Shown: piece after piece, positions 9,177 to 20,506 of the stretch
Position numbering within the stretch: the stretch's first letter is position 1
Layout of the letters: each line of letters opens with the position of its first letter
Virus record (IMG/VR): IMGVR_UViG_3300011430_000013
Location: 1 to 55,662 of that record
Length of the DNA stretch: 55,662 bases
Source: a virus
Reading direction: 5' to 3' (one strand)
The notes under the pieces: generated by a model
Database searches by the model: none
What the model was told of the DNA's origin: nothing
The model's input: only the letters and a program-made list of their open reading frames with translations
Program-made: the position numbers and the translations under genes

Positions 9177-10582
9177 AACTTTGGAATTATCGAACAAAAG
9201 TCCGGTATTTGGTCTGACCACATGGCCGCATCTGCTTGTAAATCTAATGCGTCTTGCGGGCTGTTGTTTAGGGCGCAGCGAGTAAAGTCTGGTCGTACAT
9301 ACGCCTTGCTTATAGCCGCCCCAATTAACCCAAACTGCTGAAAAGCCTGAGCGTATCGGTAGTTTTGAAGATTAACATACACTTCTCCGGCTATGCTTTC
9401 GGCATTCCAGATGATTCGGTTTTCGGTGGCGTAGAGTCCCTGCTTGTGGTTAAATAAGTCATTAATCTGAAACATTCCTTCTCTCGCTTTTATCTTTACA
9501 ATAGAATCCGTGTAGCTTTGTTCTGCATGCAGCCCATTAATCACAAATCCTTTTACTACCGTTGAATTGAGGTCATCGTAGTAGATTCCGGCAATAGGCT
9601 GGTCGGCTTGTGTGCCCGATTCCGGCCCCTCAGTAGTACATCCATTCACATTAATATCGGAAACGCCCTGAAGGAATAATCCGTAATCAGACTCTAACGC
9701 GTTGAATATTTCAATGTTATAAAGGTCGCAGTCGTTAGAGGCTGAGTTGCTCAGGGTTGCGCCTGTCCACAAGGCAGAACCCGCAGCGTCTAATCCGCAG
9801 TGTAGCCATGCGTTGTAGGTGGTAGCGTTGGTTAGCTGACAGTCTTCCATTGAAGCAAATAAGCAGAACATTAAATCAACATTTATATCACATCCCGCCA
9901 TCTCGCAATCAGTAAAGGTTACATGCTTCGCTCCGCCTATTTGAACCCCTGTTTGTCCATTACCTTTTGCTCCCCCTATTCCATTAATGTAGAAGTGAAG
10001 AAAGGATAGTTGCCTTGCTATGTAAAGGTCAGCATCGGTCTGGTCTGCCGGTACGGATTCAAAGATGTTAGTAGTGTTTGAGGTGGTTATTTCGCAGCCA
10101 TGTCCCTGATGGATAAATCGTTTACTTGATTTTGTTGTTGTAGTAGGTAGTATTATAGGCTTGTTAATTACATACTTTCTCATGCCATAAAGTCCGTAAT
10201 CAATTTGATTCTGTTTTGCGCTATTCATTAATTGAAATTCGGCCTCACAAGAAAACGCCCAATCAACAAGGTCGGTATCTTCTGTAACATTCGCATTTGG
10301 GGCATCTGCCTGCGCTTCCGCAAGCGATTTTCCATAGGATGCAAAGGTCTGCGCTGTGCCGTCTCCTAAAGAGTAAACCGGGTCGGCTGCTGGTGCTACC
10401 GTTTCGGGGGTTAGCCATTCGTTCCCAACTACTACTACTCCGGCATTGAAGTAGGTCTTCATCGCTCCAAGCGTCTGCTTCTTAGAAGCAAATGTTCCAG
10501 CGGACTCTTCTGAGTACCGGATAAGGTCAGCGTCTTTTATCGCTCCGCCAGTGCTTTCGTTTGAGGTTGTTTCGTCAGCCAT
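9173..10582 (-). CDS. Beta-helix tail spike / tail fibre
   Basis: 469 residues. The N-terminal region contains ADLIRYSEESAGTFASK and a linker. The central part (about 130-400) is a repetitive Asn/Gly/Cys strand pattern (FTDCEMAGCDINV, INVNGCTTEG), as in pectate-lyase-like helices. Likely a receptor-binding or depolymerase protein on the tail tip. It is probably coupled to the small gene that follows and lies just after the tail-protein extension frame. Confidence 0.7.
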   Translation of the reverse strand: MADETTSNESTGGAIKDADLIRYSEESAGTFASKKQTLGAMKTYFNAGVVVVGNEWLTPETVAPAADPVYSLGDGTAQTFASYGKSLAEAQADAPNANVTEDTDLVDWAFSCEAEFQLMNSAKQNQIDYGLYGMRKYVINKPIILPTTTTKSSKRFIHQGHGCEITTSNTTNIFESVPADQTDADLYIARQLSFLHFYINGIGGAKGNGQTGVQIGGAKHVTFTDCEMAGCDINVDLMFCLFASMEDCQLTNATTYNAWLHCGLDAAGSALWTGATLSNSASNDCDLYNIEIFNALESDYGLFLQGVSDINVNGCTTEGPESGTQADQPIAGIYYDDLNSTVVKGFVINGLHAEQSYTDSIVKIKAREGMFQINDLFNHKQGLYATENRIIWNAESIAGEVYVNLQNYRYAQAFQQFGLIGAAISKAYVRPDFTRCALNNSPQDALDLQADAAMWSDQIPDFCSIIPKL

Positions 10583-10584
10583 AG

Positions 10585-11052
10585 TTATTCTCTTAATTCA
10601 AGACCGCCATCCTCGCGGAGTTCGTAAAAGCTGTCCTCCCGAAGCTCGATATTGGTTTGTTCATCTCCACAATTTGATTCTACAAAATTTGTACTCCAAG
10701 CTCCCGTCCCATCTTCCAATCCCTCGATAAGGTCTAAGCAGCAATCGTCTTGGCATAAATTAGTTATCGCTATATCAAAGAAGAAGGTTGCTGGTTGTTG
10801 GGTAACGCTTACCCCCATCGAATTGTTGCATCCGTGAACTATTAGCGCATCCTTTAGCGGCTCTGAATCCGCCACAAGGTCGGTTAATCGCAGATTTCCT
10901 ATGTCTAATTCCTCGCCTGTTATACATCTTGTCATTAAAGATATAACTCCATCCGCAGATAAGAATATAGTTACAGTATAATCACAGAATGTGCCACAAG
11001 TGGCTGGTGTCGGTATTGCCTGTTGGGGGTCTGAACTATGCCAGCCCCCTAA
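10585..11052 (-). CDS. In-frame Ig-like extension following the stop of the upstream tail gene
   Basis: The frame is open from directly after the UAA of the upstream gene (11055-11053) to 10585, about 155 codons, in the same frame as that gene. The first ATG is at 10935, but homology begins earlier: TCGTFCDYTVTIFLSADG (starting near 11000) matches TSFCDYTTTTFLFADGT in the neighbouring 314-residue tail protein, and the similarity runs on past PLKDALIVHGCN / PLKSALIGLGCN. So the ATG lies inside the domain. Either the stop is read through to append this domain, or an old fusion was split. Confidence 0.6.
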   Translation of the reverse strand, partial: LGGWHSSDPQQAIPTPATCGTFCDYTVTIFLSADGVISLMTRCITGEELDIGNLRLTDLVADSEPLKDALIVHGCNNSMGVSVTQQPATFFFDIAITNLCQDDCCLDLIEGLEDGTGAWSTNFVESNCGDEQTNIELREDSFYELREDGGLELRE

Positions 11053-11610
11053 TTAAGCGGAGATTGCGAAGCACCTGTCGAATATCCCAGCGGGAGTATT
11101 GAAAGGGCAAGGCAAGTCTCCTGTCCACTTCGCTTGCGCGTTGTAGGTTACATAGCTCTTCAGGTCGTTGGCAACCGGCACTTTAGGCGTGAACGTGGCT
11201 ACCGCCCCGCTAAACCATACCTTTGTTTCGGTCCGCCACCCTATCTGCCACTCGGACTGGCTTCTTAAAGCCGTGTAGAAATCACAGTTGTCCTCGATGT
11301 TCGGGTCAAGCCAGTTCAGAATGTGAACCGTTCCTCCATTAATTGTTTCGAGGTCTCCGAAGCCTACCAGTTCCTCTGTGGTTCCTCCGTCATAGTCGCC
11401 CTGCGTGTCTTTGATGATGATTACATCGCCAGCGTTGATGTATACACCCCACTCGGCAGAGGAGGACTGGTTGACGAATGCCACCGTTGACCGATAAAGG
11501 AATACTGAGCGAATCCTGCCAAGTTCCGGGTCAATACACGGGGCGCAGGTGTAGAGAGGCATTGTTTCGGCAGTGCCGCAGCCCTCTGTTGGATAATAGA
11601 TTGTTGACAT
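11053..11610 (-). CDS. Virion protein, candidate major tail or tail-terminator protein
   Basis: 185 residues, strand-rich, ending FDRCFAISA before a UAA. It lies after the neck genes and before the tail spikes, as expected for a tail tube or tail completion component. No family motif was recognised. The next 155 codons are open in the same frame and encode a domain found fused at the C terminus of the protein at 11798-12742, suggesting a minor extended form. Confidence 0.5.
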   Translation of the reverse strand: MSTIYYPTEGCGTAETMPLYTCAPCIDPELGRIRSVFLYRSTVAFVNQSSSAEWGVYINAGDVIIIKDTQGDYDGGTTEELVGFGDLETINGGTVHILNWLDPNIEDNCDFYTALRSQSEWQIGWRTETKVWFSGAVATFTPKVPVANDLKSYVTYNAQAKWTGDLPCPFNTPAGIFDRCFAISA

Positions 11611-11611
11611 G

Positions 11612-11797
11612 TTATTTACGTTTAATATTAAATTCGTATGATTTTTTCCCTAACTCGGTTAGCTGGTATTTTCCCTCTTTTATTTCAACCACTCTTTGTT
11701 TAATTAATTCTTGTGCTGCTTTGTAATTTAGCAAAGTAGATTCTACCGGCTGATTGTTGCTGATGTGAACTAACTCTTCTCTTAGTTTTGATTCCAT
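11612..11797 (-). CDS. Hypothetical small winged-helix-like protein
   Basis: 61 residues: two helices then KEGKYQLTELGKKSYEF, a pattern like the wing of a small winged-helix domain. It sits between two tail proteins with one-base gaps on both sides. Function unknown. Confidence 0.5.
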   Translation of the reverse strand: MESKLREELVHISNNQPVESTLLNYKAAQELIKQRVVEIKEGKYQLTELGKKSYEFNIKRK

Positions 11798-12742
11798 TTA
11801 TGTGCAGTTTGATATAGTGAATGACGCAGCCCAATCCGGCCCGCCATCTTCTGTTCCAAGCAATTCATAAAAGCTACAATCAGTATTACAAACTCTTAAC
11901 ATGGTAACCTCATAAAAGAATGTTCCGGGTTGCGGAACAACAGTTATTACCATAGTATCGTTACATCCAAGTCCTATTAATGCACTTTTGAGTGGTTGGG
12001 GGTCTATTACAAGGTCGGATAATATTAATGGAACTATGGCATATATAGGGTAAGGGTCTGCTCCTACTATTGCTGTTATAGTTCCATCGGCAAATAAGAA
12101 TGTTGTCGTGGTATAATCACAAAAGCTGGTACAGGCGTCTTCCTGAATAGGTGGGCACTCCTCGCACAGCTCAATACAGGATTTATTGTAAACGGTTGCA
12201 ATAGTGTAGTTTACCTGAAAGAGGATGGATTCTGGCGGTAGGGAGTAGGAGATGTTTTGAAACTCCCGTGCCCATACCGTCTGAGAATTATTCTCAACAT
12301 TGCTTATCGAAATTGCCACATCGCTCAGCCCTAATCTTGACTGGTTGAATGCCTTAGTCGTAGTTGTTGGGAAGCCACCGGCAATTACCGAAGCAAGCCA
12401 CTCTTGCGTCATCTGTAATCGCTTGCGGTCTGCCCAGCAGAACAGTGCCATGTTAGCGGTTTCACGTGAAAAGAGTTGGCCGTCTCCAAAATCCAGCTGT
12501 TCAACTCCCTCGTAGTTTAGCCCCTCACATTTGTGGTAAATCGTTATCGAGTACCTGTCGTCAACCGCGTTAAATTCTCCGTTCCCTGAGTTATCAACAT
12601 ATGCTGGAATCTGGGTGCTGTCTTCATCCGTTCTCGGCATTTGTTTACTAATCCCTTTTAGCGAAATAATAACCTTCGAGGCGTTGAGCTTATCCTCAAT
12701 CCCGGTGTTTATCAGCCCTACTATGGAGTCTAAAAATGGCAT
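11798..12742 (-). CDS. Tail protein with C-terminal Ig-like domain
   Basis: 314 residues. The N-terminal 200 or so residues are a phage structural domain (early GLINTGIEDKLNASKVIISL). After a Cys-rich linker (CIELCEECPP) comes a strand-rich Ig-like domain (about 205-314) with CNDTM and GTFFYEVTM. That domain is repeated in the frame at 10585-11052. It follows the HK97-gp10-like gene, so it is likely a tail completion or tube protein. Confidence 0.55.
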   Translation of the reverse strand: MPFLDSIVGLINTGIEDKLNASKVIISLKGISKQMPRTDEDSTQIPAYVDNSGNGEFNAVDDRYSITIYHKCEGLNYEGVEQLDFGDGQLFSRETANMALFCWADRKRLQMTQEWLASVIAGGFPTTTTKAFNQSRLGLSDVAISISNVENNSQTVWAREFQNISYSLPPESILFQVNYTIATVYNKSCIELCEECPPIQEDACTSFCDYTTTTFLFADGTITAIVGADPYPIYAIVPLILSDLVIDPQPLKSALIGLGCNDTMVITVVPQPGTFFYEVTMLRVCNTDCSFYELLGTEDGGPDWAASFTISNCT

Positions 12743-16905: not shown

Positions 16906-17826
16906 TTAGTTTTCATATTTTTCTCTTAATGCTTTCGGAACAAGTGCGCTGCTTACCGGGTAGAACTGGTGGTTACAATTATACCCCCCGCGCCTAATGA
17001 AAAGATTATCTGCCGAAGTTCCTTCAATCATTCCATGTGGCAAATCGTATCGTTTATAAATCGCTACCTGATGCCCGCAAATTTGCCCGTCAACTAATTT
17101 AGCGAACTGCGAACGGTGAACGTAGGGCTGGCAGGTCTCTTTTGAACGAATCATTTCCTTGCACCACTCCCGCGAGGTTTCCATCAGCGAACCCACGTAC
17201 TGAAACCACTCTAACCCTAAATCCGCTGTGGCGATTTGATTGTAGGAAGCATTGTATTGATTAATCGAATCGGTTGTGATTTGCTTAGCGTACTTTACTA
17301 AAGCCCCGTCTCCGGCTCTCGTATCAGTAATGTACTGCCGCATCTGCTCTACGTAGTCCTCAAATCTTCCGCCTGATGTTATGTTTACCCGAAGTATCTC
17401 TCTTATTTTTTGGGTTACGTTTTCGCCTATCCCCGCTTCGGTAAGCGATGCCATTGTTTCATCAATGGTCTGCTTTTTTATTTCCCGGAATACCGGAGTG
17501 GGCTTGAATTTTTTGTTGATTGCTGAAAAGTACTGTCCGTTGATTTCTTCAACCGTGTCGTAGGCAGCAATAAACTCATCCAGTTTTTTCAGGTACGGCT
17601 TGCTGATAATGATTGCGTCAAGTTCTCTTTTTATCTGAGCTATTAGCCGGACATTTTTTACTGATGGTTTTATTCTGCCGTTGGCAATGTCAAGCTCTTT
17701 GCTTAGCTCAATAATTCTGGCAAATACCTGCTTCTGGGTTGCGGGTAAACTCTCGTTAAACTTGACCGTTGCCTTGTCAATCGAAGAAAGGATGTTTTTT
17801 ATTAACTGGTCTGGGCTGGTTGCCAT
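16906..17826 (-). CDS. Phage head morphogenesis protein (Mu gpF-like)
   Basis: 306 residues. Helical N terminus, then an internal motif region (SGGRFEDYVEQMRQYITDT) and a C-terminal segment with CKEM, CQPY and RRGGYNCNHQFYPVS, as in minor head proteins of the Mu F / SPP1 gp7 type. Starts one base inside the portal stop, the usual portal-then-minor-head order. Likely a minor capsid protein needed for head assembly. Confidence 0.7.
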   Translation of the reverse strand: MATSPDQLIKNILSSIDKATVKFNESLPATQKQVFARIIELSKELDIANGRIKPSVKNVRLIAQIKRELDAIIISKPYLKKLDEFIAAYDTVEEINGQYFSAINKKFKPTPVFREIKKQTIDETMASLTEAGIGENVTQKIREILRVNITSGGRFEDYVEQMRQYITDTRAGDGALVKYAKQITTDSINQYNASYNQIATADLGLEWFQYVGSLMETSREWCKEMIRSKETCQPYVHRSQFAKLVDGQICGHQVAIYKRYDLPHGMIEGTSADNLFIRRGGYNCNHQFYPVSSALVPKALREKYEN

Positions 17827-19616
17827 TATTCAACGGGGTCATTTGCCGGAGGTATTACTTCTTCTTCTGTCTCTGTCGGCTGCATGGATTCTATTAACTC
17901 TTCGGCATATCTTCGAAGTATTTCAATCTGTTGTTTTTTAGGCAGCGTGTCAAACTTCGCATTCTCTTCCATCGCCCGCTCGATAAATGAATGTATGTTG
18001 GCGTGAATTATAGAATCTGTTTTTTTGACTAATCCGAAAGCATCTCTTGAATTAACTACATCTTCCGGTTGCCCGGCAAACGGGTCAAGGGCAAGTTTCA
18101 TCGAAACTATCTTGCTTATCTTTTCGTCTGTGCTGAATCTTTTGGCAGCAAACTCTATCTCGGCAGCGTTTATTATTGCAGCGTCCATCTTAGCCTCTTT
18201 CATTGACCGTATTCCGTCTAACATAAATTCGTCTCCAAGCAGGTCAAACTTCTGCGGGACGTTGATTACCGGGAGCATCAATAGCCTTTTGGAATCGTCT
18301 TTTACAGAGGTTTTATAACGATAATCATTAATACAGAAAACAATGTTATCCAAAAGTTCTACCCCATCCTCTGCCACCCCATGAACGAAGTTGTTAAGTT
18401 CTTCTTTGTCAACCTCTTTCGCTAATCCGCTTTGATTTAGTGGTGTTGAGGCAAGAAACTCCATGTTGATTGAGGCGTATGCCTGAAAGAAGTGTCCTTC
18501 GATTCGCTCGCGCTGAATAGATACTATGCTTGTATCTTTGGTGATAAATCCGGCTGGTGGTGATGGCAGGTTGGTTTCTCCGGCAGGTGGTTTTCCAAGT
18601 ACAAGATTTTCGTAAGGATTAAAAGGATAAATACCTTTTCCTCCACACATCCCGCAGGTTTCTTTGGAGGGCTTTGTCCCGGCCGCCTTACTCTTGTTTA
18701 TCATTTCATACCCCGTCCCCCCACACCGCTTACAATCGTGAGGCTGGTACGCCCAAAGGGTAGAGTGAACATGCTGCACTACCTCTGCCTGCATATCAGA
18801 ATACTCACGTGTTGCCTCGTCCAAAAATGGAATCATGCCCATTATCTTGCTTTCATAGAGCGTCTGGTAGAGTGTTTCATTAAAGACTATTCCCTTCATA
18901 TCATACACCGGCACATACCCCAACCCGTGTTTGTAGTTAAACGCCTCCCGGTACTGGTGGTCAAAACTGACTTGGTCGAAAGTCTGAATGTTTGTGTCAG
19001 TCACCACATAGTACCGGCAGCCGTTTGTATATTCTGTTCCGCTTTGCACGTACCTGATTTTCTCTATGCTTTTTAAAACATAGTATTTTTTGTACTCGTA
19101 ATCAATAACATTTTCAGAGTTGTAAATAAATGGGTATGGTTTCAGGTACTCGTTGTCTTTAGCCTCTAAATTTATCGGCATCACAAATACCTTAGCGTTG
19201 GTATCTACTAACTGCTGCTTTAGCCCGATTTGAAAGTACCAGTTGGTAATGGAAGTATATTTTGGAAAGTTAAGGATAAGATAATCAAATAAGGTATCCC
19301 CTTCTCTTACTGTTGATACGCTGCTGTCCTCCCCAAACTTTATAGACCAGTCTTGTGACTTACGTATCTTCATCAGCGAGTTATATACTTTCGTAAAACA
19401 GCTTTTAGTTACAGGTACGTAAATCTCTTCCCGGTATTTCTGAATCTTTTCGGACTCGGATGGCCTGCGCTTGGTAAGCAAGTCTCCCGGCTTTTCCCCG
19501 TTGGCGTGTACTTTTATAGCGTGGTACTTCTTAACGCTCTGGTCGTAGAAAGGATGGTAGTACTTTAGCTTGTCCGGCTGGATGTACTTGTTAAACTGGG
19601 CAATGGTAAATTCCAT
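17826..19616 (-). CDS. Portal protein with inserted DnaJ-type zinc motif
   Basis: 596 residues with the helical, mixed composition of portal proteins and a typical C-terminal half (INMEFLASTPLNQSG, then NFVHGVAEDGVELLDN). Portals form the ring through which DNA enters and leaves the head. Unusual here: two CxxCxGxG repeats, CKRCGGTG (295-302) and CGMCGGKG (321-328), about 26 residues apart, like the zinc-binding part of DnaJ. It is followed by the minor head gene, which supports the assignment. Confidence 0.7.
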   Translation of the reverse strand: MEFTIAQFNKYIQPDKLKYYHPFYDQSVKKYHAIKVHANGEKPGDLLTKRRPSESEKIQKYREEIYVPVTKSCFTKVYNSLMKIRKSQDWSIKFGEDSSVSTVREGDTLFDYLILNFPKYTSITNWYFQIGLKQQLVDTNAKVFVMPINLEAKDNEYLKPYPFIYNSENVIDYEYKKYYVLKSIEKIRYVQSGTEYTNGCRYYVVTDTNIQTFDQVSFDHQYREAFNYKHGLGYVPVYDMKGIVFNETLYQTLYESKIMGMIPFLDEATREYSDMQAEVVQHVHSTLWAYQPHDCKRCGGTGYEMINKSKAAGTKPSKETCGMCGGKGIYPFNPYENLVLGKPPAGETNLPSPPAGFITKDTSIVSIQRERIEGHFFQAYASINMEFLASTPLNQSGLAKEVDKEELNNFVHGVAEDGVELLDNIVFCINDYRYKTSVKDDSKRLLMLPVINVPQKFDLLGDEFMLDGIRSMKEAKMDAAIINAAEIEFAAKRFSTDEKISKIVSMKLALDPFAGQPEDVVNSRDAFGLVKKTDSIIHANIHSFIERAMEENAKFDTLPKKQQIEILRRYAEELIESMQPTETEEEVIPPANDPVE

Positions 19617-20506
19617 TATATGTGACTCCTTTCTTTGAGGTATTTTGATTTAGAAACATTTTCAAATGTGGGCACTCCCCGGTAGTAGGCGTAGTGCTTT
19701 ACTAAGTTGTCGGCTATCTTTTTTATGCGCTGTCCGATGTGCTTTCCGCCCAGCGATATTCCGTAGTAGTTTTGCAAGATGTACTGGTCGTTCTTCTGAC
19801 GGTGTAGCGGTTCCCAATAGGTAGGGTAGTACGGTATCGCGTGTGGCATCATGTTTAGTTTTAGCATCGCAAGACAGAAGGCAGGCTCGTCCGGCTTGCC
19901 CCCAGCAAACTGCTTGCATATCATTTTTTCATCATCATAGAATTGTCGTGCGGTGTTAAATAATTCACTCGTCTGCTCAGACTGTTTAAAGTAAATCCAC
20001 TCGCTGCTTAAATCTATCCACTTTTCTATCCCGAAGTTTTCTTTCATCAGTGCCATATCCACCCAGTCACTGTGGCCTGCGCTGATTGGGCTGCTTCCCC
20101 TGTTTGCCATCGTGAAGTTAATGTTTGCATACTCCTCAAATACTTGAGAAGGTTTTTTGTAGGGTGACCATACCATGTCTACATCGAGAAATAATGTTTC
20201 CTGAAACGGGCTTAACTTGTCAAGATAGAGCTTAGGTTTAACATAGCAGTGGTCTGTTCCGAACATGGAATAGTTGTAAGGACATTTAATTTTAATATCA
20301 AACAAGAACTTTTGCGCCTCGTCCAACTCAACTATTGAGCTTTCATTGTGAATCAGTGCAATCTTTAGTTCCGGCTCCATCTTTTTCAGTCCCACCGCAA
20401 GATTGACCGCAAAGCGTCCGTAGATGTGGTGCCCAAGTGCCATTAGTACAATGCCTCTTCCTGATTTATCGGGGCGGTTGGCGGTGTTTATTTCGATTAT
20501 TTCCAT
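19616..20506 (-). CDS. Glycosyltransferase (GT-A fold, GT8-like)
   Basis: 296 residues. Early GIVLMALGHHIYG, then ETLFLDVDMVW (about residues 103-113) with the DxD metal and sugar-nucleotide motif, then GSSPISAGHSDW and KPDEPAFCLAML. This arrangement fits GT8-type or related GT-A enzymes. It is embedded between a tail gene and the portal gene rather than in the main glycosyltransferase cluster. It may decorate a virion protein or host glycan; the acceptor is unknown. Confidence 0.75.
   Translation of the reverse strand: MEIIEINTANRPDKSGRGIVLMALGHHIYGRFAVNLAVGLKKMEPELKIALIHNESSIVELDEAQKFLFDIKIKCPYNYSMFGTDHCYVKPKLYLDKLSPFQETLFLDVDMVWSPYKKPSQVFEEYANINFTMANRGSSPISAGHSDWVDMALMKENFGIEKWIDLSSEWIYFKQSEQTSELFNTARQFYDDEKMICKQFAGGKPDEPAFCLAMLKLNMMPHAIPYYPTYWEPLHRQKNDQYILQNYYGISLGGKHIGQRIKKIADNLVKHYAYYRGVPTFENVSKSKYLKERSHI

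Follow-up and report, generated by a model that had tools for sequence, protein, structure and literature searches.

Is a phage gene that ends in UAA, with an intact protein domain encoded behind the stop codon in the same reading frame, a programmed means of decorating some copies of a virion protein, or a fused gene that was recently split? This question is raised by a locus on the minus strand of one IMG/VR virus record, whose 55,662 bases were all analysed and are called the window here. In phages, virion proteins acquire accessory domains through either direct fusion or frameshifting, and the frameshift-made domains are well documented (PMC5009743, PMC6316719, PMC6669499); our search of open-licence papers yielded no case of such a domain reached through in-frame stop readthrough. 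If the stop were passed on purpose, the locus would represent a third route beside fusion and frameshifting, a new means of controlling how many subunits are decorated and how many are not, as well as an unusual instance of recoding, acting on the tightest stop signal of bacteria. If the stop is a nonsense mutation, it would mark the fresh loss of an accessory domain, in keeping with the idea that phages can do without such domains.

A conserved domain in frame behind a UAA stop codon

The 185-codon ORF (11610 to 11053, minus strand) ends with UAA, after which the same frame remains open for 155 codons, to position 10588, until a second in-frame TAA at 10587-10585 closes it (Table 1). A preliminary description of this DNA had reported the layout, with about 155 open codons and the strand unstated, and it is confirmed here. 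The end of the open stretch is separated by 2 nt from the next gene, whose ATG is at 10582. The domain that it encodes aligned without gaps over 110 residues, at 44% identity, with residues 204-313 of the 314-aa ORF (tblastn within the record, E 1.1e-27), the sole other copy of the domain in the record. Similarity to this paralog starts 18 codons past the UAA and 21 codons ahead of ATG 10935, in good agreement with the earlier estimate of about 20.

Because the gapless 44% identity is accompanied by differences at many synonymous positions, the domain appears, judging from the two copies, to have been translated in its current frame over the long term. The codon usage of the linker and the domain is likewise in frame and similar to that of the rest of the genome, and the downstream coding frame is in phase and, as judged from the paralog, has been under selection. 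The two stretches lie in one frame, homology runs across the ATG, and the downstream domain shows no sign of decay, with no further stop or frame break across the 155 codons. Two smaller features were also observed: the repeats IELREDSFYELREDGGLELRE (10588-10665, minus strand), which terminate the split-off domain, are absent from the paralogous copy, and the two genes that carry the domain are separated by a small 61-aa ORF (11612-11797, minus strand), which starts with an ATG immediately behind the stop of the 314-aa ORF.

Table 1. Coordinates of the UAA stop codon, the sequence behind it and the paralogous domain copy
Feature	Coordinates	Strand	Basis
185-aa ORF, virion module, a few genes past the probable major capsid gene	11053..11610	-	ORF and translation
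In-frame UAA stop, next base U	11053..11055	-	Sequence
Hairpin GGGGGCUGG-CAUAGU-UCAG-A-CCCCC, 9 bp, starting 3 nt past UAA	11025..11049	-	RNA folding
155 open in-frame codons behind the stop: 18-codon linker, domain, LRED-repeat tail	10588..11052	-	Reading frame
Conserved domain, 110 residues, 44% identical to the paralogous domain, probable beta-sandwich	10669..10998	-	Alignment and model
116-aa ORF expected from conventional gene calling, from ATG 10935-10933, poor start context, predicted to lack the first beta strand	10585..10935	-	ORF list, start score, model
C-terminal tail with three ELRE(D) repeats	10588..10665	-	Sequence
314-aa virion-module ORF, same domain fused in frame at the C-terminus	11798..12742	-	ORF list and alignment
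Paralogous domain copy, residues 204-313 of the 314-aa ORF	11804..12133	-	Alignment

Four tests indicated that ATG 10935 is probably not the natural start of the domain, a conclusion that the preliminary description had drawn from upstream similarity and that now has broader support. Conservation extends ahead of the ATG, with identity to the paralog at 13/21 codons before it versus 35/89 after it. The 39 codons following the UAA contain no ATG, GTG or TTG, leaving ATG 10935 as the only start codon. The window has four sites at which a single stop separates two in-frame stretches of 100 codons or more, and at the other three the start-less runs are far shorter (4, 9 and 19 codons). The sequence just ahead of this ATG (20 nt) scored at the 61st percentile of internal ATGs and at the 4th percentile of real starts. 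Finally, the first two strands of the modelled domain span residues 8-16 and 21-28, and the Met encoded by the ATG is residue 26, inside strand 2; therefore, a protein that began at this position would lack strand 1 of the model and keep little of strand 2.

Identity of the domain and its genomic neighbourhood

The genes upstream in transcription order encode a portal protein (PHROG 7376, E 2.6e-13), a head-morphogenesis-like protein and, assigned by position only, a probable major capsid protein. The 185-aa ORF lies just upstream of a gene for a beta-helix protein, and this neighbourhood suggests that a connector or tail role for the 185-aa protein is likely. Within the same module, the portal (17826-19616, minus strand) contains a DnaJ-like zinc-finger insertion, CKRCGGTGY...CGMCGGKG (Pfam PF00684, E 1.2e-4, below the curated cut-off), a motif shared with the portals of Polaribacter phage P12002L and the related contig L007. 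A 296-aa ORF (19616-20506, minus strand) that reads as glycosyltransferase-type separates the portal from the large ORFs upstream.

Searches with the 185-aa ORF, the 314-aa ORF and the domain gave no Pfam or NCBIfam match and no significant PHROG match, and a PDB sequence search with the domain was empty. The AF2 model of the domain had a pLDDT of 80 and a pTM of 0.71, with most of the core above 90, and in a VIA structure comparison its matches were mostly Ig domains, including all those at the top, each under Z 8 (best Z 5.8, rmsd 3.4 over 96 residues). Among weak viral matches in BFVD, the best relevant one was a major tail protein (E 0.065, probability 0.82). A first, poorer model had matched the capsid protein of mycobacteriophage Bxb1 in its C-terminal domain (Z 7.2), a match that was gone with the better model. 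The model of the whole 341 residues was poor outside the domain (pLDDT 20-30), so that no fold was assigned to the N-terminal half. From the model, an Ig-like fold is plausible, and the domain is fused to the end of the 314-aa ORF, not far from the genes for the portal and the probable capsid protein, which points to a putative C-terminal attachment to a virion protein. The earlier designation as a tail protein with an Ig-like domain is tentative, the fold being backed by a weak structural signal and the designation finding no match in Pfam, PHROG or NCBIfam.

The locus resembles the phage Ig-like accessory domains of lambda gpV, T3 gp10, Lactobacillus A2 and Listeria PSA (PMC5009743) in having a duplicated C-terminal domain on adjacent virion-module proteins and a weak Ig-like signal, but differs in having no sequence match to a known family, two helices between strands, and a stop in place of a frameshift. 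Similarly, SPP1 gp17.1/gp17.1* (PMC6316719), a major tail protein with a C-terminal FN3 extension, has an accessory beta domain just behind the stop of a virion protein, and its two forms share an N-terminus, as would the 185-aa protein and a hypothetical longer form here. In gp17.1*, however, the domain is reached by a +1 frameshift at CCC-UAA, whereas here it lies in the same frame and both other frames are closed.

Decoding of the stop codon and the hairpin behind it

In the +1 frame, a UAG follows a single open codon (AAU UAG), and in the -1 frame it follows six (UUA AUU AGG GGG CUG GCA UAG), so that a single frameshift cannot reach the domain, which is in frame 0. Reassignment of UAA under an alternative code was also rejected, given that TAA ends 26 of the 44 gene ORFs. 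With frameshifting closed and UAA not reassigned, a ribosome would therefore reach the domain only by in-frame readthrough or bypass. The two-way choice posed in the preliminary description, between readthrough and a recently split gene, holds with frameshifting excluded.

Of these two routes, readthrough is disfavoured by three observations. UAA is the usual stop codon of this genome, and a tRNA gene search of the window found none, hence no phage suppressor tRNA. In addition, the stop context is UAAU, inferred to be the most efficient termination signal in bacteria, with UAA inferred to be the codon least read through (PMC5289835). The readthrough raised earlier is hypothetical. For bypass, which requires matched codons, no matched landing codon was found: the take-off codon is GCU, and the in-frame Ala codons ahead of the domain are GCA and GCC only. 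Although T4 gene 60 (PMC5009743) similarly has a stop directly after the last sense codon and a hairpin behind it, its bypass relies on matched GGA codons, spans 50 nt and involves a signal in the nascent peptide.

The RNA directly behind the stop is predicted to fold into a hairpin that was not mentioned in the preliminary description and that is the best sequence evidence for recoding. When 28-nt windows were compared, this hairpin was the strongest among 43 minus-strand stops (-15.0 versus -7.5 kcal/mol for the next) and fell within the strongest 0.12% of positions on the minus strand of the genome. Its strength was matched by 0.7% of codon shuffles of the linker and by 2.5% of synonymous recodings; over longer stretches around it, the z-score was only -0.9 to -1.2. 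The loop AUAGUU could pair with AACUAU about 60 nt downstream, a possible pseudoknot that may equally reflect chance. An intrinsic terminator was considered and rejected, as the hairpin has no U-tract and a terminator scan called none on the minus strand; a search for known RNA families gave no match. The hairpin was noticed after the fact, and as evidence for recoding it is suggestive.

A proposed recent split of a fused gene and the competing explanations

We favour the explanation that a fused gene was recently split, or appears so through an assembly error, and consider the chances of its being right and wrong evenly balanced; this and the ratings below are judgements rather than computed posteriors. 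The 185-aa ORF and the downstream domain would be two halves of one ancestral gene of about 341 residues, built like its 314-aa neighbour as a virion protein with a C-terminal accessory domain. The UAA at the joint would be very recent, either a nonsense mutation truly present in the phage that was sampled or a consensus error, and virions of the split variant would bear the 185-aa protein without the domain. Ancestral fusion, recent stop and accessory nature of the domain are what we infer, the fusion from the paralog only, because no relative with an intact fusion was found. This explanation is supported by the conservation of the domain and of the 21 codons ahead of the ATG, the common use of UAA as a stop, the U that follows it, the lack of a suppressor tRNA gene and the in-frame codon usage, as well as by the occurrence of private substitutions in this assembly. 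It explains all but the hairpin and the tidy position of the stop, and new biology is unnecessary.

Comparison with related phages, proposed in the preliminary description, was carried as far as the searches but yielded no sequence spanning the stop site in phage, viral or genome collections. For the 185-aa ORF, the 314-aa ORF and the domain, DNA and protein searches of phages found no relatives, nor did searches of genome contigs. Viral contigs contained none by protein, by two-copy profile or by the degenerate motif PLKxALxxxGCN, whose four matches were stop-interrupted and unrelated, and plasmids contained none, with one chance-level match at E 0.05. Searches via the portal, capsid and terminase showed that several further IMG/VR samples contain fragments of the same phage, with identities of at least 99.96%; these fragments cover only 13,765-43,106 and thus end 2 kb short of the site. 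A relative of about 70% identity (contigs L007 and L012) was present in another sample, its contigs leaving the region downstream of the probable capsid gene uncovered.

The same-phage contigs nevertheless provided an estimate of how often this assembly departs from its siblings. Private substitutions, at which the window alone differs from two or three agreeing same-phage contigs, numbered two in 29,342 shared bases (19296 and 36517, both missense), a rate of about 7 per 100 kb. As 4.7% of the possible substitutions in the genes of the window are nonsense, about 0.18 private nonsense changes are expected across 55.7 kb; therefore, one such event is unremarkable, though its position in the linker is somewhat lucky. 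A recent nonsense mutation, offered earlier as the alternative, or an assembly error is at least as likely as readthrough. Against a recent split, a random nonsense change in the gene falls in the short linker with a chance of about 1 in 10 or less, and the unusually strong hairpin directly behind the stop is left unexplained.

The hairpin and the position of the stop are what programmed recoding would account for, an explanation that we regard as tentative and on the improbable side. With help from the hairpin, some ribosomes would continue in frame past the UAA, either reading through it or, in a sub-case, briefly bypassing part of the linker. The 185-aa protein would then be mixed with a longer, domain-bearing form, a result that SPP1 obtains by frameshifting. 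The stop lies exactly at the domain joint with the domain in frame, 155 codons follow without further stop or frame break, and the post-stop hairpin, the strongest among 43 and in the top 0.1% of windows, could extend into a pseudoknot through its loop. Moreover, minor extended forms often carry such phage domains (PMC5009743, PMC6316719, PMC6669499). Nevertheless, recoding would here use the stop context inferred to leak least (PMC5289835), the window has no tRNA gene, no natural in-frame hop over a stop is known (PMC5009743), the hairpin was spotted after the fact, and no relative was found to supply covariation or other comparative support. The closest parallels, MuLV gag-pol and plant-virus readthrough (PMC5009743), share an in-frame downstream ORF and an RNA structure 3' of the stop, but MuLV combines UAG with a pseudoknot in a eukaryotic host, whereas this locus has UAA-U and a stem 3 nt away in a bacterial system. 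We also consider it rather doubtful that, in a dsDNA phage, some copies of a virion protein gain an accessory domain through in-frame, hairpin-driven passage of UAA, whether by readthrough or a stop hop. A further point against recoding is that, with the stop in the A site, a ribosome would partly melt a stem only 3 nt behind it.

We judge it unlikely that the domain is a separate gene, translated after the UAA from ATG 10935 or from a non-AUG codon such as an AUA in the linker, with the hairpin marking the end of the upstream gene. An in-frame ATG is present, the domain ORF abuts the next gene in an operon-like manner, and UAAU plus a hairpin resembles a tidy gene end. However, the ATG scores like an internal Met codon rather than a real start, a protein initiated there would be missing strand 1 and the greater part of strand 2 in the model, the 21 codons ahead of it are at least as conserved as the remainder, and non-AUG initiation has no positive evidence.

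Least probable, and in our view very unlikely, is that copying or recombination placed the domain, in frame by chance, after the native stop of what was already a complete 185-aa gene, and that it is not yet expressed or is decaying: accessory domains are said to move from one phage gene to another by non-homologous recombination, in or out of frame (as stated in the part of PMC5009743 that cites Fraser et al.), and a second copy lies 0.8 kb upstream, but the copies are only 44% identical and show no decay, which implies an old copy or an origin elsewhere, and the codon usage of the linker is in frame.
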